Below, one piece after another: positions 9,101 to 44,171 of a DNA stretch of 46,688 nucleotides. This stretch comes from Acidobacteriota bacterium (GTDB lineage Bacteria; Acidobacteriota; Vicinamibacteria; Vicinamibacterales; CAVVIG01). The stretch's first letter is position 1; every line of letters starts with the position of its first letter. Location of the stretch: the NCBI GenBank assembly GCA_023265175.1, contig JAHFUI010000006.1:1-46688 (forward strand), read 5' to 3'. Under the pieces are notes generated by a model. It was not told the DNA's origin. It worked only from the letters and a program-made list of their open reading frames with translations, and did not search any database. Made by a program: the position numbers and the translations under genes.

Positions 9101-9173
9101 CACCACAAAGGACACCATGGACACAAAGGTCCAGACCGGTATTTTCTTTGTGTCCTTGGTGTCCATTGTGGTG
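9101..9173. repeat. ACCACAAAGGACAC inverted repeat, intergenic copy
   Basis: The left arm CACCACAAAGGACACCATGG then ACACAAAGG (9101-9129) and right arm TCTTTGTGTCCTTGGTGTCC then ATTGTGGTG (9145-9173) pair as a long imperfect hairpin. The copy contains AAAGGACACCATGG, a latent Shine-Dalgarno plus ATG, but that frame is not in frame with the tannase that starts at 9194. Confidence 0.9.
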
Positions 9174-10770: not shown

Positions 10771-10851
10771 GATCAAACACAAAGGACACGAAGGACACCA
10801 GGGGCCATACCGGTCTTATGCTTTGTGTCCGTTGTGTCCTTTGTGGTGATC
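10771..10851. repeat. ACACAAAGGACAC inverted repeat between convergent genes
   Basis: The copy is bounded by GATC on both ends (GATCAAACACAAAGGACACG ... TCCTTTGTGGTGATC) and sits between the stop codons of the convergent tannase (10747) and DUF5916 gene (10871). Here the long hairpin could act as a bidirectional terminator-like structure. Confidence 0.88.
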
Positions 10852-15409: not shown

Positions 15410-15868
15410 ATGGGGATTCATTCGACCGCTGAGTCACCACAGAGGACACAAAGGGCACAAAGGAAGAACCGGCATAGGCTCCGACCTTTGTGTCCATGGT
15501 GTCCTTTGTGGTGCATCAGCGCTGCGATGATGGTGTTGCTCCTGACGGCGAGCGCATCAGCCCAGACGCCGGCGCCGCAAAACGCGGCGCCCGCCGGGAA
15601 CGCCGAGAACGGCAAGCGCTTGTTCACCTCGTATTATTGCTATGCGTGCCACGGGACCGTGGGACAAGGGGGCAGCGCCGGAGCGCGAATCGCCCCTCGG
15701 CCGATCGCGTACGCCGCATTGCTCCGCTACGTGCGGAAGCCGGCGGGTGGCATGCCGCCGTACACGAGCAAGGTCATCGCCGACCAGGAGCTGGCTGACA
15801 TTTACGCCTTTCTCCGATCGCTGCCACCGACCCCCTCCGCGCAGAGCATTCCGTTGCTGAACCAGTAG
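15410..15868 (+). CDS. Class I c-type cytochrome, monoheme
   Basis: Small exported cytochrome of 152 aa. A single heme-binding CYACH motif lies near residue 82 (GKRLFTSYYCYACHGTVGQGG). A likely axial Met occurs in KPAGGMPPYTSKV, and the C-terminal helix is DQELADIYAFLRSLPP. The ATG at 15410 has a strong GAGGTAGGGGG ribosome site overlapping the end of the ThDP gene, and the N-terminus then forms a signal: basic region RTQRAQRKNRHR, hydrophobic PLCPWCPLWCISAAMMVLLLTASASA. Most of this leader is encoded by the inverted repeat at 15435-15513. A start at 15527 would leave an n-region with no positive charge. Likely function: electron acceptor for the periplasmic dehydrogenases encoded nearby. Confidence 0.82.
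   Translation: MGIHSTAESPQRTQRAQRKNRHRLRPLCPWCPLWCISAAMMVLLLTASASAQTPAPQNAAPAGNAENGKRLFTSYYCYACHGTVGQGGSAGARIAPRPIAYAALLRYVRKPAGGMPPYTSKVIADQELADIYAFLRSLPPTPSAQSIPLLNQ
15435..15513. repeat. ACCACAGAGGACAC inverted repeat, copy inside the cytochrome leader
   Basis: The left arm CACCACAGAGGACACAAAGG then GCACAAAGG and right arm CCTTTGTGTCCATGGTGTCC then TTTGTGGTG form a long hairpin. It is preceded by TTCGACCGCTGAGTCA (15421-15436), which recurs exactly at 20300-20315 in front of another copy. It lies within the 5' coding region of the cytochrome c gene. Confidence 0.88.
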
Positions 15869-16599: not shown

Positions 16600-18516
16600 A
16601 TGCGAAGAATCTCGACTAGCCTGCTGATGGCGATCCTCGTTAGTGCCGGTGCGCTGATCGGAGGGGCGCAGCAAACCGCCAAGTCGGCGAACGCGCCGGG
16701 TGACTGGCCCACCTACAATCATGACCTCGCCGCGACGCGGTTCTCGCCGCTGGCGCAAATCACGCCGGACAACGTCGCGCAGCTCAAACAGGCGTGGACC
16801 TTCAGCCTCCGCCCGCCGGGCGCGCCCGCGCAGGCTGGAGGGCTCGGTGGATCATCCCAGGCCGTGCCGATCGTCATCAATGGGGTGATGTACGTGCCGC
16901 AAGGCAGCAAGGTGGTGGCGCTCGAAGCCGACACCGGCAAGGTGATCTGGGAGTACCAGTTGGCGCAGGGCCAGACCTCGCGTCGCGGCCTCGCCTTCTG
17001 GCCGGGCGAGGGCAGCGATCCGGCGCGCATCATGGTGACGTCGGGCGCGAAGCTGATCGCGCTCAACGCCTCGACTGGTGATTTGTCGTCCGGCTTCGGC
17101 CGAGACGGCATCGTCGAGATGACGGTCCCGTACAACGGCGCGCCGACCATCTTCAAGAACGTGGTGTTGATCGGCGCCAATGTGAATGAGGTTCCGCAGG
17201 GTCCGCCCGGGGACACGCGCGCGTTCGACGCGCGCACGGGCAAGAAGCTCTGGGAGTTCCACACCGTGCCGCGGACTGGAGAATTCGGGAACAACACGTG
17301 GGGCGACGGATGGAAGGAACGCTCGGGAACGAACATCTGGGGCTTCTCGATGAGCGTCGACGAGCCGCGCGGCCTCGTCTACATGCCGATCGGCGGCCCG
17401 GCGGCGAATTACTACGGCGGCGATCGGCCCGGCAACAACCTGTTCGGAAACTCGATCGTGGCGGTCGATGCGCAGACCGGGAAGCGCGTCTGGCATTTCC
17501 AGACCGTGCACCACGACATCTGGGATTCGGATCAGCCGTCGGCGCCCGGGCTCGTCGATATCGTGCAGAACGGCAAGACCGTACCGGCACTCGCGGCGAT
17601 TGGCAAGACCGGATATCTCTTCGTCCTCGATCGGACGAACGGCAAGCCGGTGTTCGGCGTCGAAGAGCGTCCGGTGCCGAAGGGCGACGTGCCGGGCGAA
17701 TGGTATTCGCCGACGCAGCCGTTTCCCGTGAAGCCGGGTCCGCTCTCGCGCGTGAGCTTCAACAAAGAGACGGACATGGTGACCGCGGCCGACACCAGCG
17801 CCGAGCACGTGCAGGCGTGTCAGCAGATGTGGGACAAGGCGGGCGGGTTCGAGAACAAGGGACCGTTCACGCCGTTTCGTTATCACGAAGAGGGGACGCC
17901 GCCGAAGTCGACGATTTCATTCCCGGGCGGGACCGGCGGCGTGAACTGGGGCGGGACGGCCACCGATCCGCGAACCGGGTACATCTTCATGAACGCACAC
18001 GACACCTCGCTCGTCGGATGGGTCGAGAAGCGCAAGCCTGGCGTCGAGTACAGCTTCGACACGCGCGGGTCGAATGCGCTCTACGACCGTGCGAGCGTTG
18101 ACGGTCCCGGGCCCTTCCACGCGTTCAGCGCGCCGTTCAAGACGACGGACGGGCGCACGGTTTTGCTGTCGTGCCAGCGTCCACCCTGGGCGAAGCTGGT
18201 CGCGGTCAACGCGAACACCGGCGAGGTCGCGTGGCAGGCGACGCTCGGGTTGACCGAGGAGTTGCCGGAAGGCAAGCAGAATACCGGCAACAGCGGCAGC
18301 GCGGGTCCGACGGCGACCGCCGGGGGGCTCGTCTTCATCGGCGCGACCAACGACCGCCGCTTCCGCGCGTTCGACTCGAAAACCGGCAGGCAACTGTGGG
18401 TGACGAAGCTCGAAGGCTCGGCGAATGCAAACCCGATCACCTATCAGGGGAGGAACGGCAAACAGTACGTCGCGATCGTCGCGACCGATTCAGTCGTCGT
18501 GTTTGCGTTGCCCTAA
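16600..18516 (+). CDS. PQQ-dependent dehydrogenase (membrane glucose dehydrogenase-like beta-propeller), paralogue 1
   Basis: Exported quinoprotein of 638 aa. The signal is MRRISTSLLMAILVSAGALIGGAQ. The mature start GDWPTYNHDLAATRFSPLAQI is characteristic of eight-bladed PQQ propellers. Tryptophan-docking repeats recur (ALEADTGKVIWEY, AFDARTGKKLWEFHT, AVDAQTGKRVWHFQ, AVNANTGEVAWQ, AFDSKTGRQLWV). The active-site region HHDIWDSDQPSAP corresponds to HHDxWDxD of glucose dehydrogenase. No heme motif is present, so electrons must leave to a separate acceptor (cytochrome c or quinone). The expected reaction is periplasmic oxidation of a sugar or alcohol. The start has GGAGA about 6 nt upstream. The gene at 20367 is a close paralogue. 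Confidence 0.9.
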   Translation: MRRISTSLLMAILVSAGALIGGAQQTAKSANAPGDWPTYNHDLAATRFSPLAQITPDNVAQLKQAWTFSLRPPGAPAQAGGLGGSSQAVPIVINGVMYVPQGSKVVALEADTGKVIWEYQLAQGQTSRRGLAFWPGEGSDPARIMVTSGAKLIALNASTGDLSSGFGRDGIVEMTVPYNGAPTIFKNVVLIGANVNEVPQGPPGDTRAFDARTGKKLWEFHTVPRTGEFGNNTWGDGWKERSGTNIWGFSMSVDEPRGLVYMPIGGPAANYYGGDRPGNNLFGNSIVAVDAQTGKRVWHFQTVHHDIWDSDQPSAPGLVDIVQNGKTVPALAAIGKTGYLFVLDRTNGKPVFGVEERPVPKGDVPGEWYSPTQPFPVKPGPLSRVSFNKETDMVTAADTSAEHVQACQQMWDKAGGFENKGPFTPFRYHEEGTPPKSTISFPGGTGGVNWGGTATDPRTGYIFMNAHDTSLVGWVEKRKPGVEYSFDTRGSNALYDRASVDGPGPFHAFSAPFKTTDGRTVLLSCQRPPWAKLVAVNANTGEVAWQATLGLTEELPEGKQNTGNSGSAGPTATAGGLVFIGATNDRRFRAFDSKTGRQLWVTKLEGSANANPITYQGRNGKQYVAIVATDSVVVFALP

Positions 18517-18523
18517 GCCGACT

Positions 18524-18599
18524 CACCACAAAGGACACCATGGACACAAAGATGAGACCACTAGGTTTGCGCCTTCGTGTCCTTGGTGTCCTTTGTGGT
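18524..18599. repeat. ACCACAAAGGACAC inverted repeat carrying SD, ATG and leader of the next gene
   Basis: The left arm CACCACAAAGGACACCATGG then ACACAAAG (18524-18551) and right arm CCTTCGTGTCCTTGGTGTCC then TTTGTGGT (18572-18599) form an imperfect hairpin with about 9-bp internal periodicity. The left arm contains AAAGGACACCATGG: AAAGGA (18530-18535), a 5-nt spacer, and the ATG at 18540 of the PQQ alcohol dehydrogenase gene. The right arm encodes its hydrophobic leader. Confidence 0.9.
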
Positions 18600-20291
18600 A
18601 GTTCAGCGTGGTTTTCCGCGTTGCTGCTGGCGCAGATCAGCACCTTCACGCCCATCACGAAAGCGATGCTCGAGAACCCGAGCCCTGACGACTGGCTGAT
18701 GTACAGCCGGACGTACGACGCGCAGCGCTTCAGCCCGCTGAAGCAGGTCAACCGCCAGAACGTCGATCGGCTCAAGACCGTGTGGACGCATGAGCTCGGC
18801 ATGGGGACCGTGGAGAGCATCCCGCTCGTGTACCGCGGCGTGATGTACGTGGTCGTGCCCGGCGCCGGTGTCCGCGCACTCGACGCGGCCAGCGGCGCCC
18901 TCGTCTGGGAATACAAGCGCGCGGGAAACGGCAGACCGAAGACGATCGCGATGTACGACGACCTCGTCTTCTATACCGCGCCGGACGGCACGCTCGTCGC
19001 GCTCGACGCGCGGAACGGTCAGGTGCGGTGGGAGACGAAAACCGCCGGTGGCGCGACCTCGGGGCCGATCGTCGTGGAAGGCAAGGTCCTCACCGGCCGT
19101 ACCTGTTCTCCGCTGCGCGCCAACTGCTACGTCTCGGCGCACGACGCGAAGACCGGCACGGAGGTCTGGAAATTCTACACGGCCGCCGGCGACGATGACC
19201 CGGGCGGCAAGACGTGGGGCGGTGCGCCGGAAGCGACGCGCGTCGCATCGACGTGGGGACTCCCCGGCGGCTACGATCCGGTTCGTCGTCTCGTCTACTG
19301 GGGCATTGCCAACCCGACGCCGAACACGCGCATGGTCCGCCACGGCGGTAATCCTGATGCGATCCCGACCTTTGCGCCGGCGGACTTGTACAGCAATTCG
19401 ACGGTCGCGCTCAATCCCGACACCGGCAAGCTCGTGTGGTACTACCAGCACCTGCCGGGCGACGATTGGGACGAGGACTACACGCACGAGCGCACGCTGT
19501 TTCGGACCGCGGTGAATCCGGATCCGAAGTCCGTGAAGTGGATCAACCCCGACATCCGCCGCGGACAGCAGCGCGACGTCATGGTGATGGTCGGAGAAGG
19601 CGGCGGCATGTGGGCGCTCGATCGCACGAACGGCCAGTTCCTCTGGGCGTCGCCGTTTCCCTACGACACGAAGAACTTCATCATCTCCAGCATCGACGTG
19701 AAGACCGGCATTCCCCATCTCAACACCGATCTGATCTTCAGGGAGCCGGGTCAACGGCACACGCTGTGTTACTGGAACACGCGCAGCTACTGGCCGTTGG
19801 CGTACCACCCGGGACAGAACGCGCTGTACGTGCCGTACGTCGACAACTGTCTCGATATGACGTCGCCGGTTCCCGCGACCAACGGTCAGCCCGCGAAGCC
19901 CGAGCGCCGCGCCGGCGTGCGGCGCTCCGGGATCGATCTCGAGGCCTTCGCGGGCGTGGTCAAGGTGAATATGTCGACCGGTGAGGCCAAGGTGATTTAC
20001 AGAGGACGCGCACCTGGGAACGGCGCGATGCTGGCGACGGCCGGCGACCTCGTCTTCTGGGGCGATCTCGACGGGAAGCTGCACGCATTCGATGCAGCGA
20101 GCGGGAAGATCCTCTGGGAAACGGCGTTGCCGGGAACGATTCAGAACAGCACGATCACCTACGCGGTGAACGGCAAGCAGTACGTGGCCGTGTTCACTGG
20201 CGAAGGGCTGCTGAGTGGCGGCCTCATCGAGCAAGCACAGATTCAGCCCACACGGCGTCACAACGCGGTGCATGTGCTTGCGTTACCGTAG
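18540..20291 (+). CDS. PQQ-dependent alcohol dehydrogenase-like quinoprotein
   Basis: Exported propeller of 583 aa, of the methanol/ethanol-dehydrogenase branch rather than the glucose branch. Features are DDWLMYSRTYDAQRFSPLKQ, the cysteine pair GRTCSPLRANCYVSAHD (this subfamily's counterpart of the vicinal disulfide), the active-site motif YQHLPGDDWDEDYTHER with the catalytic Asp pair, and Trp-docking repeats (ALDAASGALVWEYK, AFDAASGKILWET). The likely reaction is oxidation of primary or aromatic alcohols with PQQ and Ca or a lanthanide. The start sits inside an inverted repeat: ATG at 18540 (SD AAAGGA) or 18552. Either gives the leader RPLGLRLRVLGVLCGSS then AWFSALLLAQ, largely repeat-encoded. 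It is flanked by two glucose-dehydrogenase-like paralogues. Confidence 0.85.
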   Translation: MDTKMRPLGLRLRVLGVLCGSSAWFSALLLAQISTFTPITKAMLENPSPDDWLMYSRTYDAQRFSPLKQVNRQNVDRLKTVWTHELGMGTVESIPLVYRGVMYVVVPGAGVRALDAASGALVWEYKRAGNGRPKTIAMYDDLVFYTAPDGTLVALDARNGQVRWETKTAGGATSGPIVVEGKVLTGRTCSPLRANCYVSAHDAKTGTEVWKFYTAAGDDDPGGKTWGGAPEATRVASTWGLPGGYDPVRRLVYWGIANPTPNTRMVRHGGNPDAIPTFAPADLYSNSTVALNPDTGKLVWYYQHLPGDDWDEDYTHERTLFRTAVNPDPKSVKWINPDIRRGQQRDVMVMVGEGGGMWALDRTNGQFLWASPFPYDTKNFIISSIDVKTGIPHLNTDLIFREPGQRHTLCYWNTRSYWPLAYHPGQNALYVPYVDNCLDMTSPVPATNGQPAKPERRAGVRRSGIDLEAFAGVVKVNMSTGEAKVIYRGRAPGNGAMLATAGDLVFWGDLDGKLHAFDAASGKILWETALPGTIQNSTITYAVNGKQYVAVFTGEGLLSGGLIEQAQIQPTRRHNAVHVLALP

Positions 20292-20299
20292 CAATGATG

Positions 20300-20343
20300 T
20301 TCGACCGCTGAGTCAACACAAAGGACACGATGGACACAAAGGG
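20300..20343. repeat. Half copy (left flank plus left arm) of the ACCACAAAGGACAC element
   Basis: The sequence TTCGACCGCTGAGTCA (20300-20315, identical to 15421-15436) is followed by ACACAAAGGACACGATGG and ACACAAAGGG. No right arm follows. It lies 24 bp before the start of the next PQQ dehydrogenase gene, so that gene is read from its own leader. Confidence 0.8.
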
Positions 20344-32932: not shown

Positions 32933-33454
32933 TTAGAAGTTGACGGTTGCCGTGACCGTGTCGGCGTAGCTGCCGGCCGGGACGTCCTGGTTGCTGGTGA
33001 CCCGGCCGTAGACCGTGAAATTGCGCGCCGTCTTAGAAGGGGCGACCGCTGGCGTCAACAGCGCCGCGCCGGAATTGCCCCAGACCGTCGTCCGTCCGCT
33101 GTCCTGATACATTTCGTAGGTCAGGTAATTGCTCGATCCATCCGTCAGGCGTCGCGTGCTGCCGGACGCGTTGCTGCCCAGGTTGAGCCCGATGGTCGAC
33201 GCCGCGCCCTTGGTGCAGGTGATCGTCACCGTGCCGGTGCTATCGAGGTTGCTCGCGGCGTTGGCCACGACCGGGTCGTAGGCGCCGAAGGCGAGCGCCG
33301 CCGTGCTGATCGTGCAGTTGTTGGCGACCGACGCGCTCACGCTGAGGCTCGTGCTGGCTGACGCCGCCTCCGAGCGGACGCTGGTGACGCAGACGGCGCC
33401 GGCCAGCGCCGCGCCTGCCAGGGTTGCCGTGAGCGTCCGAGCTCGTGTCTGCAT
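32933..33454 (-). CDS. Spore coat U subunit, type X (copy A)
   Basis: Major-subunit candidate of 173 aa. The signal includes LAGAALAGAVCVTSVRSEA. The mature core is NNCTISTAALAFGAYDPVVA ... GTVTITCTKGAAS (the disulfide pair), then SNYLTYEMYQDSGRTTVWG, GRVTSNQDVPAGSYADTV and the terminal VTATVNF donor-strand-like end. By eye it differs from copy B (35450) at about eight of 173 residues, most of them in the signal peptide, so the pair is a recent duplication or is kept alike by gene conversion. The 97-bp gap to the type Y gene upstream holds a GC-rich hairpin. Confidence 0.88.
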   Translation of the reverse strand: MQTRARTLTATLAGAALAGAVCVTSVRSEAASASTSLSVSASVANNCTISTAALAFGAYDPVVANAASNLDSTGTVTITCTKGAASTIGLNLGSNASGSTRRLTDGSSNYLTYEMYQDSGRTTVWGNSGAALLTPAVAPSKTARNFTVYGRVTSNQDVPAGSYADTVTATVNF

Positions 33455-33510
33455 GACCTTGTCGACTGTAATATCTTTTCCGGGTCGAAGATGTCGCGTC
33501 GGGCCGAAAC

Positions 33511-33527
33511 CCGCCGCCCTGCGGCGG
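33511..33527 (-). terminator. GC-rich hairpin downstream of a type Y subunit gene
   Basis: CCGCCGC-CCT-GCGGCGG forms a 7-bp all-GC stem about 25 nt after the stop of the 33552 gene. On the minus strand it is followed by GGGTTTCGG, a weak T-run. A matching hairpin lies at the same distance after the 34843 gene. It may attenuate transcription between subunit genes. Confidence 0.4.
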
Positions 33528-33551
33528 CGGAATCCTGCTCGGAACGCGTGC

Positions 33552-34058
33552 TTAGAAGTTCACCGTGGCCGTCACGGTGTCCGCGTAGCTGCCGGCCGGC
33601 GAGTCCTGGTTGCTGGCGACGCGGCCGTAGGCCGTGAAGGCGCGCGCGGCTTTCGACGGCGCCGCCGCGGGCGTCTCGACATCGGCGCCGGTGCCCCAGA
33701 CCGTGGTGCGCCCGCTGTCCTGGTAGATCTCGTAGGTGAGGTAATTGCTCGAGCCGTCGGTCAGCCGCCGGGTGCTGCCCGTGGCGTTGATGCCAAGGTT
33801 GAGCGCGATGGTGGTCGCCGCGCCTTTGGTGCAGGCGATTGTCACCGTGCCGGTGCCGTCAAGGTTGCTCGCCGCGTTGGCCACGACCGGGTCGTAGGCG
33901 CCGAAGGCGAGGGCCGCCGTGCTGATCGTGCAGTTGTTGCTGATGCTGGCGCTCGACGCCAGCGTGGTGGCGGTCGAACCCGCGTGCACTGCGGTTCCCA
34001 CCAGTCCCACCAGTCCGAGTACCGCCGCCGCCGTTGCCGTCCGCGTTGTGCGTCGCAT
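33552..34058 (-). CDS. Spore coat U subunit, type Y (copy C)
   Basis: 168-aa subunit. The start ATG at 34058 is fixed by GAGGAG 7 nt upstream; a TTG at 34073 is part of that ribosome site. The signal region is AAAVLGLVGLVGTAVHAG. The mature part SISNNCTISTAALAFGAYDP ... GTVTIACTKGAATTIALNLG resembles type X but has IACTKG, EIYQDSGRTTVWGTGADVET and PSKAARAFTAYGRV as type-specific blocks. It is very close to copy D (34843). An 8-bp stem-loop (34077-34095) stands just before its ribosome site. Confidence 0.88.
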   Translation of the reverse strand: MRRTTRTATAAAVLGLVGLVGTAVHAGSTATTLASSASISNNCTISTAALAFGAYDPVVANAASNLDGTGTVTIACTKGAATTIALNLGINATGSTRRLTDGSSNYLTYEIYQDSGRTTVWGTGADVETPAAAPSKAARAFTAYGRVASNQDSPAGSYADTVTATVNF

Positions 34059-34076
34059 GTCTGTTCTCCTCAATAC

Positions 34077-34095
34077 CCTCCGCCTGTGGCGGAGG
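34077..34095 (-). promoter_or_regulatory. Conserved 5'-leader hairpin of a type Y subunit gene (copy C)
   Basis: CCTCCGCC-TGT-GGCGGAGG is a perfect 8-bp stem with a 3-nt loop, 18 nt upstream of the ATG and just before GAGGAG. The same stem with a changed loop (AGT) and the surrounding leader are found before copy D. It could modulate ribosome access or mark a processing or termination point between subunit genes. Confidence 0.55.
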
Positions 34096-34157
34096 TGGGC
34101 ACGAAAGTGACCGTCAGTTACCCGCCGCGTCGTGCCGACGGTGGGACTGCATGAAGC

Positions 34158-34178
34158 TTAGAAATTCACAGCCGCCGC
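34158..34178 (-). pseudogene. 3' tail of a lost type X subunit gene
   Basis: On the minus strand this reads ...GCGGCTGTGAATTTCTAA, that is ...AAVNF and a stop, followed by leader sequence homologous to that downstream of copy B. Its stop lies about 100 bp from the ATG of copy C, as the stop of copy B lies about 100 bp from the ATG of copy D. Only about five to seven codons of the subunit remain; the rest appears replaced by the HTH gene and AT-richer DNA. Confidence 0.45.
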
Positions 34179-34417
34179 GCGTCCTCGCTGCGTCCTGCCG
34201 CTAAACCTGCAGTGGCAGGGCGCTGCTGCTCGAGCCACGCATCCAAATCGCTTCGGCGAATCCGCCATTGGCGTCCGACTCGCACGGCCGGGAGCTCGCC
34301 GGATTTGATCAAACGATAAACGGTGCACGACTTGACCTCCAGATATACGAAGACCTCATCCGTCGCGAGGAAGGCTGGATGATTATGATGTCTTGTAAAG
34401 TTCGTTGATATGTCCAC
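34166..34417 (-). CDS. Excisionase-type helix-turn-helix DNA-binding protein
   Basis: 83-aa protein. FLATDEVFVYLEVKSCTVYR then LIKSGELPAVRVGRQWRIRR then SDLDAWL is a complete winged HTH_17/excisionase domain (helix-turn-helix followed by the VGRQWR wing). It starts with GTG at 34417. Such proteins act as recombination directionality factors or small regulators. It lies on the same strand as the fimbrial genes but in DNA of lower GC, and its 3' end overlaps the VNF tail of a former subunit gene. There is no complete recombinase beside it, so it is either a leftover of a mobile segment or a regulator captured by the locus. Confidence 0.8.
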   Translation of the reverse strand: MDISTNFTRHHNHPAFLATDEVFVYLEVKSCTVYRLIKSGELPAVRVGRQWRIRRSDLDAWLEQQRPATAGLAAGRSEDARRL

Positions 34418-34800
34418 GCTAGCACCATTGTAAATACGTTAATAGGACAACAAGAGACACTAATCTAATCTTGCGCGGCCTGTCTGTCAACAGCTTTTTT
34501 CGCTGCGCGTCTTGCCGCTACCATGCGTTCGATGGTGGAGAGTTTGACGTGTCAGGTTGGCTTCCATGTGACCGAGTAAAAGCAATCCTAGTACCATCCA
34601 ATAAGCACTATATCTTACAGGTACTTGCAGGAAATATCTGCCGTGAAACGACAAAAGCCATGGCCATGCCGCGATTGCTCCTACAAAAAATAGAGATGAG
34701 GGTGCGCCCACCGCGGGCCGAGACATGGCCAAGAAAGAGGCAGAGGAAAAGAGAAGGATTCAACAAAGCGCCACAGCGAGGGCCGCCGGCTCACTGAGCC
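34418..34800. other. Lower-GC intergenic segment in the fimbrial array
   Basis: About 380 bp, visibly richer in A and T than the flanking subunit genes (for example GTAAATACGTTAATAGGAC near 34431 and AGCACTATATCTTACAGG near 34605). I find no gene with a convincing ribosome site or family. An 81-codon minus frame contains LLLGHMEANLTRQTL but lacks recombinase motifs. The segment includes the likely promoter of the HTH gene and fills the space where the tandem array predicts a type X subunit gene. Confidence 0.5.
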
Positions 34801-34818
34801 CCGCCGCCGATGCGGCGG
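34801..34818 (-). terminator. GC-rich hairpin downstream of type Y copy D
   Basis: CCGCCGC-CGAT-GCGGCGG lies about 25 nt after the stop of the 34843 gene, at the same place as the hairpin at 33511-33527 after copy C. The flanking ACGCGTGCTTAGAAGTT is conserved too. The lack of a strong T-run makes termination uncertain. Confidence 0.4.
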
Positions 34819-34842
34819 CGGGAGCCCGCTGCGAACGCGTGC

Positions 34843-35349
34843 TTAGAAGTTGACGGTCGCCGTGACGGTGTCGGCGTAGCTGCCGGCCGGTGAGTCCTGG
34901 TTGCTGGTCACGCGGCCGTAGGCCGTGAAGGCGCGCGCGGCTTTCGACGGCGCCGCCGCGGGCGTCTCGACATCGGCGCCGGTGCCCCAGACCGTGGTGC
35001 GCCCGCTGTCCTGGTAGATCTCGTAGGTGAGGTAATTGCTCGAGCCGTCGGTGAGCCGCCGCGTGCTGCCCGAGGCATTGCTGCCCAGGTCGAGCGCGAT
35101 GGTGGTCGCCGCGCCCTTGGTGCAGGCGATGGTCACCGTGCCGGTGCCGTCAAGGTTGCTCGCCGCGTTGGCTACGACCGGGTCGTAGGCGCCGAAGGCG
35201 AGGGCCGCCGTGCTGATCGTGCAGTTGTTGCTGATGCTGGCGCTGCTGGCCAGACTCGCCGTCGCCGACCCCGCGCGCAGGTGCGCCGCCGTGCCGACCA
35301 AGCCCGCCACTACGCCAAGCACCGCCGCCGTTCGCATTCCGTGTCGCAT
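34843..35349 (-). CDS. Spore coat U subunit, type Y (copy D)
   Basis: 168-aa Csu subunit nearly identical to copy C in its mature part; by eye the visible changes there are in NLGINATGS/DLGSNASGS and GRVAS/GRVTS. The signal is AAVLGVVAGLVGTAAHLRAG. Start ATG at 35349 with GAGGAG 7 nt upstream; in-frame sequence beyond it is the leader. The Cys pair (NNCTIST, IACTKG) and terminal VTATVNF are intact. It follows copy B by 100 bp and is followed by the interrupted segment. Confidence 0.88.
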   Translation of the reverse strand: MRHGMRTAAVLGVVAGLVGTAAHLRAGSATASLASSASISNNCTISTAALAFGAYDPVVANAASNLDGTGTVTIACTKGAATTIALDLGSNASGSTRRLTDGSSNYLTYEIYQDSGRTTVWGTGADVETPAAAPSKAARAFTAYGRVTSNQDSPAGSYADTVTATVNF

Positions 35350-35367
35350 GTCCGTTCTCCTCACTAC

Positions 35368-35386
35368 CCTCCGCCAGTGGCGGAGG
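35368..35386 (-). promoter_or_regulatory. Conserved 5'-leader hairpin of a type Y subunit gene (copy D)
   Basis: CCTCCGCC-AGT-GGCGGAGG, the same 8-bp stem as at 34077-34095 with a different loop, 18 nt upstream of the ATG. The leader around it (GTGAGGAGAACGGAC, TTTCGTG, GACGGGTA) is shared with copy C, so leader and gene were duplicated as one unit. Confidence 0.55.
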
Positions 35387-35449
35387 TGGTCACGAAAGTT
35401 ACCGACAGATACCCGTCGCGTCATGCGACGGTGAGAGCAAGTGCCGACA

Positions 35450-35971
35450 CTAGAAGTTCACGGTCGCCGTGACCGTGTCGGCGTAGCTGCCCGCCGGGAC
35501 GTCCTGGTTGCTGGTGACCCGGCCGTAGACCGTGAAATTGCGCGCCGTCTTAGAGGGGGCCGCCGCTGGCGTCAACAGCGCCGCGCCGGAATTGCCCCAG
35601 ACCGTCGTCCGTCCGCTGTCCTGATACATTTCGTAGGTCAGGTAATTGCTCGATCCATCCGTCAGGCGTCGCGTGCTGCCGGACGCGTTGCTGCCCAGGT
35701 TGAGCCCGATGGTCGACGCCGCGCCCTTGGTGCAGGTGATCGTCACCGTGCCGGTGCTATCGAGGTTGCTCGCGGCGTTGGCCACGACCGGGTCGTAGGC
35801 CCCAAAGGCCAGCGCCGCCGTGCTGATCGTGCAGTTGTTGGCGACCGAGGCGCTCACACTGAGGCTCGCGCTGGCCGACGCCGCATCCGATCGGACGCTG
35901 GTGACGCAGACGGCGCCGGCCGCTGCCGCGCCCGCCAGAATTGCCGTGAGGATCCGCGTCCGTGTCTCCAT
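35450..35971 (-). CDS. Spore coat U subunit, type X (copy B)
   Basis: 173-aa Csu subunit, first structural gene of the fimbrial array. Signal LAGAAAAGAVCVTSVRSDA; mature core as in copy A with NNCTISTAALAFGAYDP, TITCTKGAAS, TVWGNSGAALLTPAAAPSK and terminal VTATVNF. The ATG at 35971 follows the stop of the GGDEF-EAL gene by only 7 bp, so it must be read from the same transcript, although no clear ribosome site is seen in the end of that gene. Confidence 0.88.
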   Translation of the reverse strand: METRTRILTAILAGAAAAGAVCVTSVRSDAASASASLSVSASVANNCTISTAALAFGAYDPVVANAASNLDSTGTVTITCTKGAASTIGLNLGSNASGSTRRLTDGSSNYLTYEMYQDSGRTTVWGNSGAALLTPAAAPSKTARNFTVYGRVTSNQDVPAGSYADTVTATVNF

Positions 35972-42421: not shown

Positions 42422-44062
42422 ATGCGTCCAGCCACGCTCGCGGCGCTACTGAGTGTTCTCGTTCTTCGTGCCACGCCCGCCGCTGCGGCGTCGTGTGAGA
42501 ATCTCACCTCGTTGTCGTTGCCGAACACGACGATCACGGCCGCGCAGTTGGTCGCGGCCGGGGCGTACGTACCGCCCGCCCCGCCCGCAAGGGCCGGTGG
42601 ACCCCGCGCGGGCGGAGCGAACGCGCCCGTCGAGAATGGCCGCGCGGGCGCGCCGGCAGGACGGGCGGGTGGCGGCCAGGGTCGGGGCCCGCAGTTCGCC
42701 GATCTGCCCGCCTTCTGTCGCGTGAGCGCGACGCTGAAGCCGAGCAGCGACTCCGACATCAAGATTGAGCTCTGGATGCCGGCCTCCGGATGGAACGGCA
42801 AGTTCGTCGTGCCGGGCAACGGAGGCTTCGCCGGTGCGATCGCTCCCGCCGGTCTCGCCACCGCGCTTCGGAGCGGCTATGCGGCGGCGACGACCGACAC
42901 CGGGCATGAAGGCGGCAGCGGCAGCTTCATGCTCGATCATCCCGAGCGACTGACCGATTTCGCCGACAGAGCGATTCACGAGACGACGACCAGGAGCAAA
43001 GCGATCCTGACGGCGTTCTACGGCAACGGTCCAAAGCTGTCCTACTTCAACGGCTGCTCGACGGGCGGCCGGCAGGCCCTGACCGCCGCGCAGCGTTTCC
43101 CCGACGACTTCGACGGCATCGTTGCCGGCGCGCCGGCGATTTATGCGTCGCGCCAGTCGGCCGGACAGATTTGGATCTGGCAGGCGACGCACAAGGACGC
43201 GGCGAGTTACCTCACGCCGGACAAGTTGACCGTGCTTCACGACGCGGCGGTCGCCGCATGCGACGCCCTCGACGGCGTGAAAGACGGCGTGCTCGAAGAT
43301 CCCACGCGCTGCAAGTTCGATCCGAAAGTCGTGCAGTGCAAGGACGCGGACCCTTCAACAAGCTCAGGGTCGCCCCGAGCGCAGTCGAGGGGCGACGGCC
43401 CCGGCTGCCTGAGCGCCGCGCAGGTGGAAGCGGCGCGGAAGATTTACACGGGCGCGAAGAACCCGCGGACCGGCGAGCAGATCTTCTCGCCGCTGTTTCC
43501 CGGCAGCGAGCTGGGGTGGGCCTCATCGGCCGGCGCGCAACCGGTCGGCTACGCCCTGGATGTCTACCGGTATGTCGTCTTCAAGGACCCGAAATGGGAC
43601 CCGCTCGCGCTCGGCTACGACGCCGATATCGCCAGGGCTGACAAGGTTGTCGGTCAGCTCACGGCCATCGATCCCGATCTGACGAAGCTGCTGCGGCACG
43701 GGAAGCTGCTCATGTATGCGGGGTGGAGCGACCCGGGGATCCCGCCCGGCTATTTGCCCGAGTACTACAAGAACGTGCTGGCGAAGACGAACGTCAAGAA
43801 CGTGCGCGACGCGGTTCGTTTGTTCATGGTGCCCGGCATGGGGCACTGCGGCGGCGGCGATGGAACGAGCACGTTCGACATGCTCGGCGCACTGAATCAG
43901 TGGGTGGAGACCGGAAGGGCCCCGGGCTCCATCAACGCGTCACGTGTGAAGGACGGCGCGGTGGACCGCACCCGTCCGCTCTGCCCGTACCCGCAGGTGG
44001 CGACGTACAAAGGAAGCGGAAGCACCGGCGAGGCGGCGAACTTCGTTTGCAAAGCGCCCTGA
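42422..44062 (+). CDS. Tannase/feruloyl esterase family protein, paralogue 2, with in-frame repeat insertion
   Basis: Secreted esterase of 546 aa. The ATG at 42422 is preceded by AGGAGA about 6 nt upstream; signal LAALLSVLVLRATPAAA. After SCENLTSLSLPNTTITAAQL there is a Gly/Ala/Pro/Arg-rich stretch (about 55-95). The nucleophile motif GCSTGGRQ has Ser213 (codon at 43058) beside Cys212, and the His-Cys end reads GMGHCGGGDGTSTFD, so the CS-D-HC triad is complete. Within the family's KFDPxVxxC...C segment this copy has 15 extra residues (PSTSSGSPRAQSRGD and neighbours) encoded by a 45-bp palindromic repeat. Predicted to cleave plant phenolic esters. Confidence 0.9.
   Translation: MRPATLAALLSVLVLRATPAAAASCENLTSLSLPNTTITAAQLVAAGAYVPPAPPARAGGPRAGGANAPVENGRAGAPAGRAGGGQGRGPQFADLPAFCRVSATLKPSSDSDIKIELWMPASGWNGKFVVPGNGGFAGAIAPAGLATALRSGYAAATTDTGHEGGSGSFMLDHPERLTDFADRAIHETTTRSKAILTAFYGNGPKLSYFNGCSTGGRQALTAAQRFPDDFDGIVAGAPAIYASRQSAGQIWIWQATHKDAASYLTPDKLTVLHDAAVAACDALDGVKDGVLEDPTRCKFDPKVVQCKDADPSTSSGSPRAQSRGDGPGCLSAAQVEAARKIYTGAKNPRTGEQIFSPLFPGSELGWASSAGAQPVGYALDVYRYVVFKDPKWDPLALGYDADIARADKVVGQLTAIDPDLTKLLRHGKLLMYAGWSDPGIPPGYLPEYYKNVLAKTNVKNVRDAVRLFMVPGMGHCGGGDGTSTFDMLGALNQWVETGRAPGSINASRVKDGAVDRTRPLCPYPQVATYKGSGSTGEAANFVCKAP
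43351..43395. repeat. 45-bp palindromic repeat inserted in frame in the tannase gene
   Basis: CCCTTCAACAAGCTCAGGGT ... CGAGCGCAGTCGAGGGGCGA is an imperfect palindrome of the widespread type ending in TCGAAGGG/CCCTTCGAC. Relative to the two paralogues, which have seven residues between the two Cys of this segment, this copy has 22, exactly 15 codons more. Confidence 0.8.
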
Positions 44063-44065
44063 CAA

Positions 44066-44157
44066 CAATTGCAGGATGGCAGGATTGCAGAATGGCAGGA
44101 AGTAAAGTTCCTGCCTTCCCTTCCTGCAATCCTGCCATTCTGCAATTCTGCAATCTT
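44066..44157. repeat. GCAGGATG 8-bp-periodic inverted repeat between tannase genes
   Basis: The left arm has units GCAGGATG, GCAGGATT, GCAGAATG, GCAGGAAG (44071-44102). The right arm (about 44119-44157: TTCCTGCAATCCTGCCATTC then TGCAATTCTGCAATCTTG) is its inverted counterpart. It fills almost the whole gap between the two tannase genes and could form a long hairpin in the transcript. Confidence 0.85.
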
Positions 44158-44171
44158 GTAAGGGGGGTCAC

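Follow-up and report, generated by a model that had tools for sequence, protein, structure and literature searches.

The window, by which we mean the whole 46,688-nt stretch of acidobacterial DNA analysed here, carries a PQQ-dependent dehydrogenase gene with two more PQQ genes, one on each side. Its open reading frame, read from ATG 18540, is 583 aa long and matches the Pfam PQQ domain at 9.6e-55. The 5′ end of this gene coincides with a dispersed palindrome, which contains the candidate start codon and the first 23 residues of the open frame (Table 1). The arms measure 27 nt, are 93% complementary and enclose a 21-nt loop; with its outer flanks the copy reaches about 93 nt and its 5′ end falls on the TAA (18514–18516) that terminates the upstream gene. 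RNA folding of the full palindrome gave a hairpin of −54.7 kcal/mol with z = −8.8, which excludes chance as its origin. An inverted repeat at this gene start had been proposed in the original prediction; it is present, and dispersed, with arm positions corrected as in Table 1. An AAAGGA 5 nt before the ATG had also been described, and the motif is there with a gap of 4 nt.

Table 1. Features of the locus, further copies of the element in the window, and genes elsewhere whose putative leader is read from an arm (L numbers, our locus labels)
Feature	Position or locus	Strand	Basis
Upstream PQQ dehydrogenase gene, stop codon adjoining the element	16600–18516	+	
Extended palindromic element: core 18525–18599 with outer GANTCAGCG-type flanks	18516–18608		Inverted repeat and family profile
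Left arm ACCACAAAGGACACCATGGACACAAAG	18525–18551	+	Inverted-repeat detection
AAAGGA, Shine-Dalgarno-like, 4 nt 5′ of ATG 18540, predicted to be paired in the hairpin	18530–18535	+	
Candidate start ATG (alternative: ATG 18552)	18540–18542	+	
PQQ-dependent dehydrogenase gene, 5′ end overlapping the element	18540–20291	+	Pfam PF01011
Predicted leader, element-encoded part: MDTKMRPLGLRLRVLGVLCGSSA	18540–18608	+	Translation and family profile
Loop, MRPLGLR, putative positively charged n-region; second in-frame ATG (18552–18554) at its 5′ end	18552–18572	+	
Right arm CTTCGTGTCCTTGGTGTCCTTTGTGGT, LRVLGVLCG, putative first half of the hydrophobic region	18573–18599	+	Inverted repeat and translation
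Predicted leader remainder and cleavage region, host-encoded: WFSALLLAQ	18609–18635	+	Translation; alignment with relatives
Further copy, upstream of a gene with its own leader downstream	9102–9171		
Further copy	10778–10847		
Copy reading in frame into a cytochrome-c-like ORF (CxxCH); uncertain contribution to its leader	15436–15512		
Lone left arm ahead of the following PQQ gene (ATG 20367, own leader)	20315–20342	+	
Arm-leader LptE, lipobox present	L122, L219, L178		
Arm-leader SCO1	L209; by sequence also L272, L278		
Arm-leader M28 peptidase	L118/L145		
Arm-leader M16 peptidase	L246		
Arm-leader M20 peptidase	L120		
Arm-leader M23 peptidase	L078		
Arm-leader DsbD	L119		
Arm-leader TPR/FG-GAP protein	L121		
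Arm-leader VWA proteins	L137, L261		
Arm-leader HlyD-type protein	L049		
Arm-leader NMT1-type binding protein	L139		
Further arm-leader PQQ proteins	L084, L240		
Arm-leader PDPKQM family, no Pfam match	L047, L177, L196		

Composition of the predicted leader

Translation probably starts at either ATG 18540 or ATG 18552, both within the element. Read from the former, the left arm contributes MDTK only, in which the charges of K and D cancel, and the positive charges of the leader (R6, R11 and R13) come from the loop and the loop/right-arm border. Loop and right arm would form an n-region with positive charge and begin the hydrophobic region, supplying its first half; an apparent remnant of the native leader would complete that region and provide the cleavage site. 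The right arm had been expected to end just before the mature protein, but eight residues encoded by host DNA (WFSALLLA) lie between the element and the likely cleavage site (WFSALLLA↓Q), and the host-encoded AWFSALLLA comprises the nine most hydrophobic residues of the whole leader. The element is most likely a part of the predicted export signal of this gene, and it does not supply the complete leader, because host DNA encodes the cleavage site and about half of the hydrophobic core. The proposed division into a left-arm n-region and a right-arm h-region is borne out for the hydrophobic right arm and not for the left arm, the positive charges being those of the loop and its border with the right arm. 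A crude home-made signal-peptide scorer, run on the genes that read out of an arm, did not call the window gene.

Relatives of the dehydrogenase with 53% identity were found in three genomes (G012, G023 with two copies, and G027). The three whose sequence was read start with MVKRSHVVAASLLGAV, MVNRSYLVAASLFGAV and MRQLVRPLVALAAAV; none of them carries an arm and their leaders are unrelated to that of the window gene. Repeat-free orthologues sharing the same leader residues had been named as the observation that would count against a repeat-derived leader; none was seen among these three, and the claim was not refuted. We consider it probable that a palindrome lying between two PQQ genes was recruited to form the 5′ end of the second gene, through a process that recurs in related genomes. 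The overlap, the open frame, the dispersed family, the unrelated leaders of repeat-free relatives, the recurrence and the constraint on residues are seen in the sequences themselves; the actual start site, the export of the product and the order of events are what we infer from them.

A dispersed family with a coding bias

Allowing up to 3 mismatches, 133 arm matches (65 + 68) were detected in the window genome (4.92 Mb, 308 contigs); a reversed control pattern gave none (0 + 0). From fetched regions of this genome 71 elements were catalogued, 42 of them with both arms. Arms are similar between copies, loops differ, and most elements are intergenic. A family profile built from 110 arms extends each arm outward by GANTCAGCG, about 9 nt, giving the full arm CCTTTGTGTCCTTNGTGTCCTTTGTGGTGANTCAGCG. 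Among the 27 genomes of the acidobacterial taxonomic family, 16 carry the element, with as many as 160 arms; at a stricter cut it was found in 20 of the 297 genomes of a phylum-wide sample. Scanning GTDB for the full element with a left-arm ATG gave 12 loci, of which 11 belong to Acidobacteria-labelled MAGs and one to an Anaerolineales MAG. The element may also resemble repeats that lie at GxxExxY gene starts.

The repeat had been called mobile or spreading. Dispersal is clear from these counts; as for mobility, the comparison of related genomes revealed neither an empty site nor a target-site duplication, and the window genome has no match to the Y1 transposase (PF01797), on which ground RAYT/IS200-type mobilisation was rejected. 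Other genomes hold 0–3 PF01797 matches, with no clear relation to the number of elements. At the LptE locus within genus g17 no clean empty site was observed; genome G016 has a decayed arm there.

Several observations concern other copies and other repeats. The cytochrome-c-like ORF entered by one window copy (Table 1) ends at 15868. Read from an upstream ATG, its n-region would be arginine-rich and encoded by the left arm, with a hydrophobic right arm following; a start at 15527 is also possible. Variant arms of the AAAGAACAC and AAGGGACAC types occur in more distant acidobacterial genomes (G151, G253, G316 and G300). The window also contains a second, unrelated palindromic repeat (GCAGGATGGCAGGAT type; 44060–44170) with 80% complementary arms, closely followed by a gene that begins at ATG 44172 and has a leader of its own, MSRKLLLVCVLALAALSLRA. 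It further holds tandem copies of a 7-nt unit, AGTCGTC (286–355), and four direct repeats of about 300 nt (32934–35750), two of them 98% identical.

We then considered the coding capacity of the family. When the 42 full elements were translated in six frames, 68% of frames were open versus 29% in mononucleotide shuffles, and a positive left arm followed by a hydrophobic right arm appeared in 19% of frames versus 0.2%. Chance is excluded as the source of this charged-then-hydrophobic pattern, which arises because the arm is built of a 9-nt (three-codon) unit, AAAGGACAC, with its complement GTGTCCTTT. The left copy of the unit encodes polar or charged residues, and two of the three frames of its reverse complement are rich in L, V, C and F. 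Placed at a gene start, an element therefore has an unusually high chance of reading as n-region plus h-region. The proposal that the palindrome encodes a Sec leader by its very structure is supported for the family as a coding tendency, and only in part for the window gene, given its host-encoded share. This suggests a simple rule: a dispersed purine-rich palindrome with 9-nt periodicity may act as a ready-made leader, one arm polar and the other hydrophobic.

Recurrence at other genes and its history

Outward arms were scanned in the window genome, in three further genomes (G017, G010 and G012) and at the 12 GTDB loci. A coding frame reads out of 89 of the 366 arms scanned. For exported proteins the arm tends to form the hydrophobic region; for cytosolic proteins there is mostly an ATG a few codons past the arm. 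Curation by eye, with putative start sites throughout, gave 24 arm-leader genes in which the arm constitutes all or part of the leader; false positives of the signal-peptide scorer (L131, L164, L230 and L267) were taken out in the same manner, and L118/L145 and L122/L320 are apparently the same genomes reached twice. By our own count the repeat arm is recurrently kept as a predicted signal peptide in about 14 exported families of this one acidobacterial family (Table 1). As in the window gene, MDTK is read from the left-arm ATG at L118, L121, L122 and L257. An ATG within 20 codons past the arm is lacking in 19 of the 24 arm-leader genes versus 10 of the 55 others (Fisher 4e-7, with both groups assigned by eye).

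These data bear on a first alternative, in which the element acts as an intergenic hairpin only (for example in mRNA stability or at transcript ends) and its in-frame reading is incidental, the true leader being lost or a rare start lying downstream. The mainly intergenic location, the strong predicted hairpin and the cytosolic-protein genes that begin right after an arm would all fit. In the window gene, however, the first ATG 3′ of the arm comes 22 codons on, already within the mature protein, and the only TTG would leave no n-region; moreover, the arm reading recurs in LptE with its lipobox, SCO1, DsbD and others, with constraint on the residues (see below). We regard this alternative as improbable.

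The weakest part of the original prediction was that the repeat supplies the Shine-Dalgarno sequence. Within the full palindrome the motif has a predicted unpaired probability of 0.001, and 9 of the 24 arm-leader genes retain the gene-side arm only, so a usable Shine-Dalgarno from the element is doubtful. If it is sequestered, translation could start only through coupling to the upstream gene, the use of ATG 18552, or opening of the hairpin during transcription. Such masking is the core of a second alternative, a translational switch that hides Shine-Dalgarno and start, so that expression of the gene depends on translational coupling to the upstream PQQ gene and the leader is secondary. The adjoining upstream stop codon and the near-complete pairing suit it, as does the presence of both arms at 15 of the 24 genes; against it stand the nine single-armed genes and the lack of enrichment of both-arm elements at arm-leader genes (Fisher p 0.17), which together indicate that the hairpin is unnecessary for the leader. 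We hold the switch to be unlikely as the main account, and it could operate together with leader co-option. We also considered whether the left arm is selected against at these genes and rejected this, the test being not significant.

Constraint and ancestry were examined in two families, LptE and PDPKQM. The latter (L047 4561–5796, L196, L177 and L335–L358) is a conserved exported family with the motif PDPKQMSGIPRPV and no Pfam match, present in 24 of the 27 genomes of the taxonomic family. An arm-encoded leader in one constant frame was found for LptE in 11 genomes and for PDPKQM in 11. In genomes with few or no elements the leaders of both are mostly unrelated; exceptions are G013 and G011, which carry elements elsewhere and have a PDPKQM gene without an in-frame arm leader of this kind. 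The first seven residues are h-region-compatible in 20 of 22 LptE/PDPKQM arms compared to 99 of 279 arms without an outgoing gene (Fisher 3e-7, an optimistic value since the 22 arms share ancestry).

On trees of the mature proteins, 2–3 changes of state are needed for PDPKQM and 4 for LptE, which allows old single gains followed by losses. A third alternative builds on these small numbers: the arm leaders of both families would be old single captures inherited with the gene, to which the recent spread of the repeat is irrelevant. We can give it tentative credence. On the other side, 159 of 198 third codon positions in these arms hold the arm consensus base, and GC3 is 0.40 in the arms versus 0.87 in the mature parts. 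Leaders of genus g17 also carry the silent CTC variant of that genus' own dispersed subfamily, although the own-genome profile scored best in only 3 of 6 cases, so that a general rule of embedded arms always resembling the family of their own genome was rejected. Repeat-like third positions and the g17 variant speak against plain inheritance, with re-insertion, homogenisation and DNA-level selection as candidate causes. A further possibility, though less likely than not, is that the palindrome keeps furnishing signal peptides across the genome: with h-region-like residues encoded by two of three frames of its arm, copies would repeatedly be captured as leaders, and captured copies would be re-seeded from the dispersed family or homogenised with it. 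In that event the leaders of envelope proteins such as LptE would evolve with the repeat and not with the gene.

Comparison with known repeats

REPs are defined by a GTAG or CGTC tag at the end of a palindrome with a stem of 5–13 bp (GTAG) or 8–9 bp (CGTC) (PMC3733652). Like them, the acidobacterial element forms many short palindromes located mainly between genes, some intragenic (PMC3733652). It differs in its arms, which are at least 27 nt long with 9-nt periodicity, and in the lack of a Y1 transposase in the window genome; neither tag is conserved at the arm ends in the 110-arm profile. Identity with GTAG/CGTC REPs was rejected on these grounds: no tag, 27-nt arms 93% complementary plus about 9 nt, and no RAYT in the window genome. 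As to MITEs, inverted repeats are present, loops differ between copies, and no empty site or target duplication was found. The Rickettsia palindromic elements (RPE; Ogata et al. 2000, a reference in PMC2759123) are inserted in frame inside proteins and are not known to form leaders. Compared by description, both kinds of palindromic repeat are read in frame in protein genes, the RPEs internally and the acidobacterial arm at the N-terminus.

In the literature, the arm strings occurred only in papers whose titles do not concern bacterial repeats, and the work of Delihas was the only direct precedent found for a repeat-encoded leader. Recurrence across many exported families, LptE included, together with residue constraint was not found described in the literature accessible to us, which lacks most subscription papers. 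The origin of new signal peptides is rarely seen directly; here the source can be identified, many genes show the same event, and repeat-bearing orthologues can be set against repeat-free ones. The finding also concerns start-site annotation, as a gene start in these genomes may lie within a repeat.

The general idea of a repeat forming a signal peptide is already known, and the earlier claim that an export signal given by a repeat had no precedent was too strong. In Yersinia, the repeat RU-2 corresponds to residues 1–30 of YPO1552, where the signal peptide is predicted to span 41 residues; YPO1552 homologues have unrelated signal sequences (Delihas 2007, PMC2759123; PMC2229807). The window gene presents the same two features, a predicted signal peptide whose putative N-terminus comes from a small dispersed repeat, and homologues with unrelated leaders. 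RU-2, however, is a 168-bp repeat in one gene of one genus, whereas the acidobacterial element occurs in about 14 gene families and several genera, with evidence of constraint on the encoded residues.
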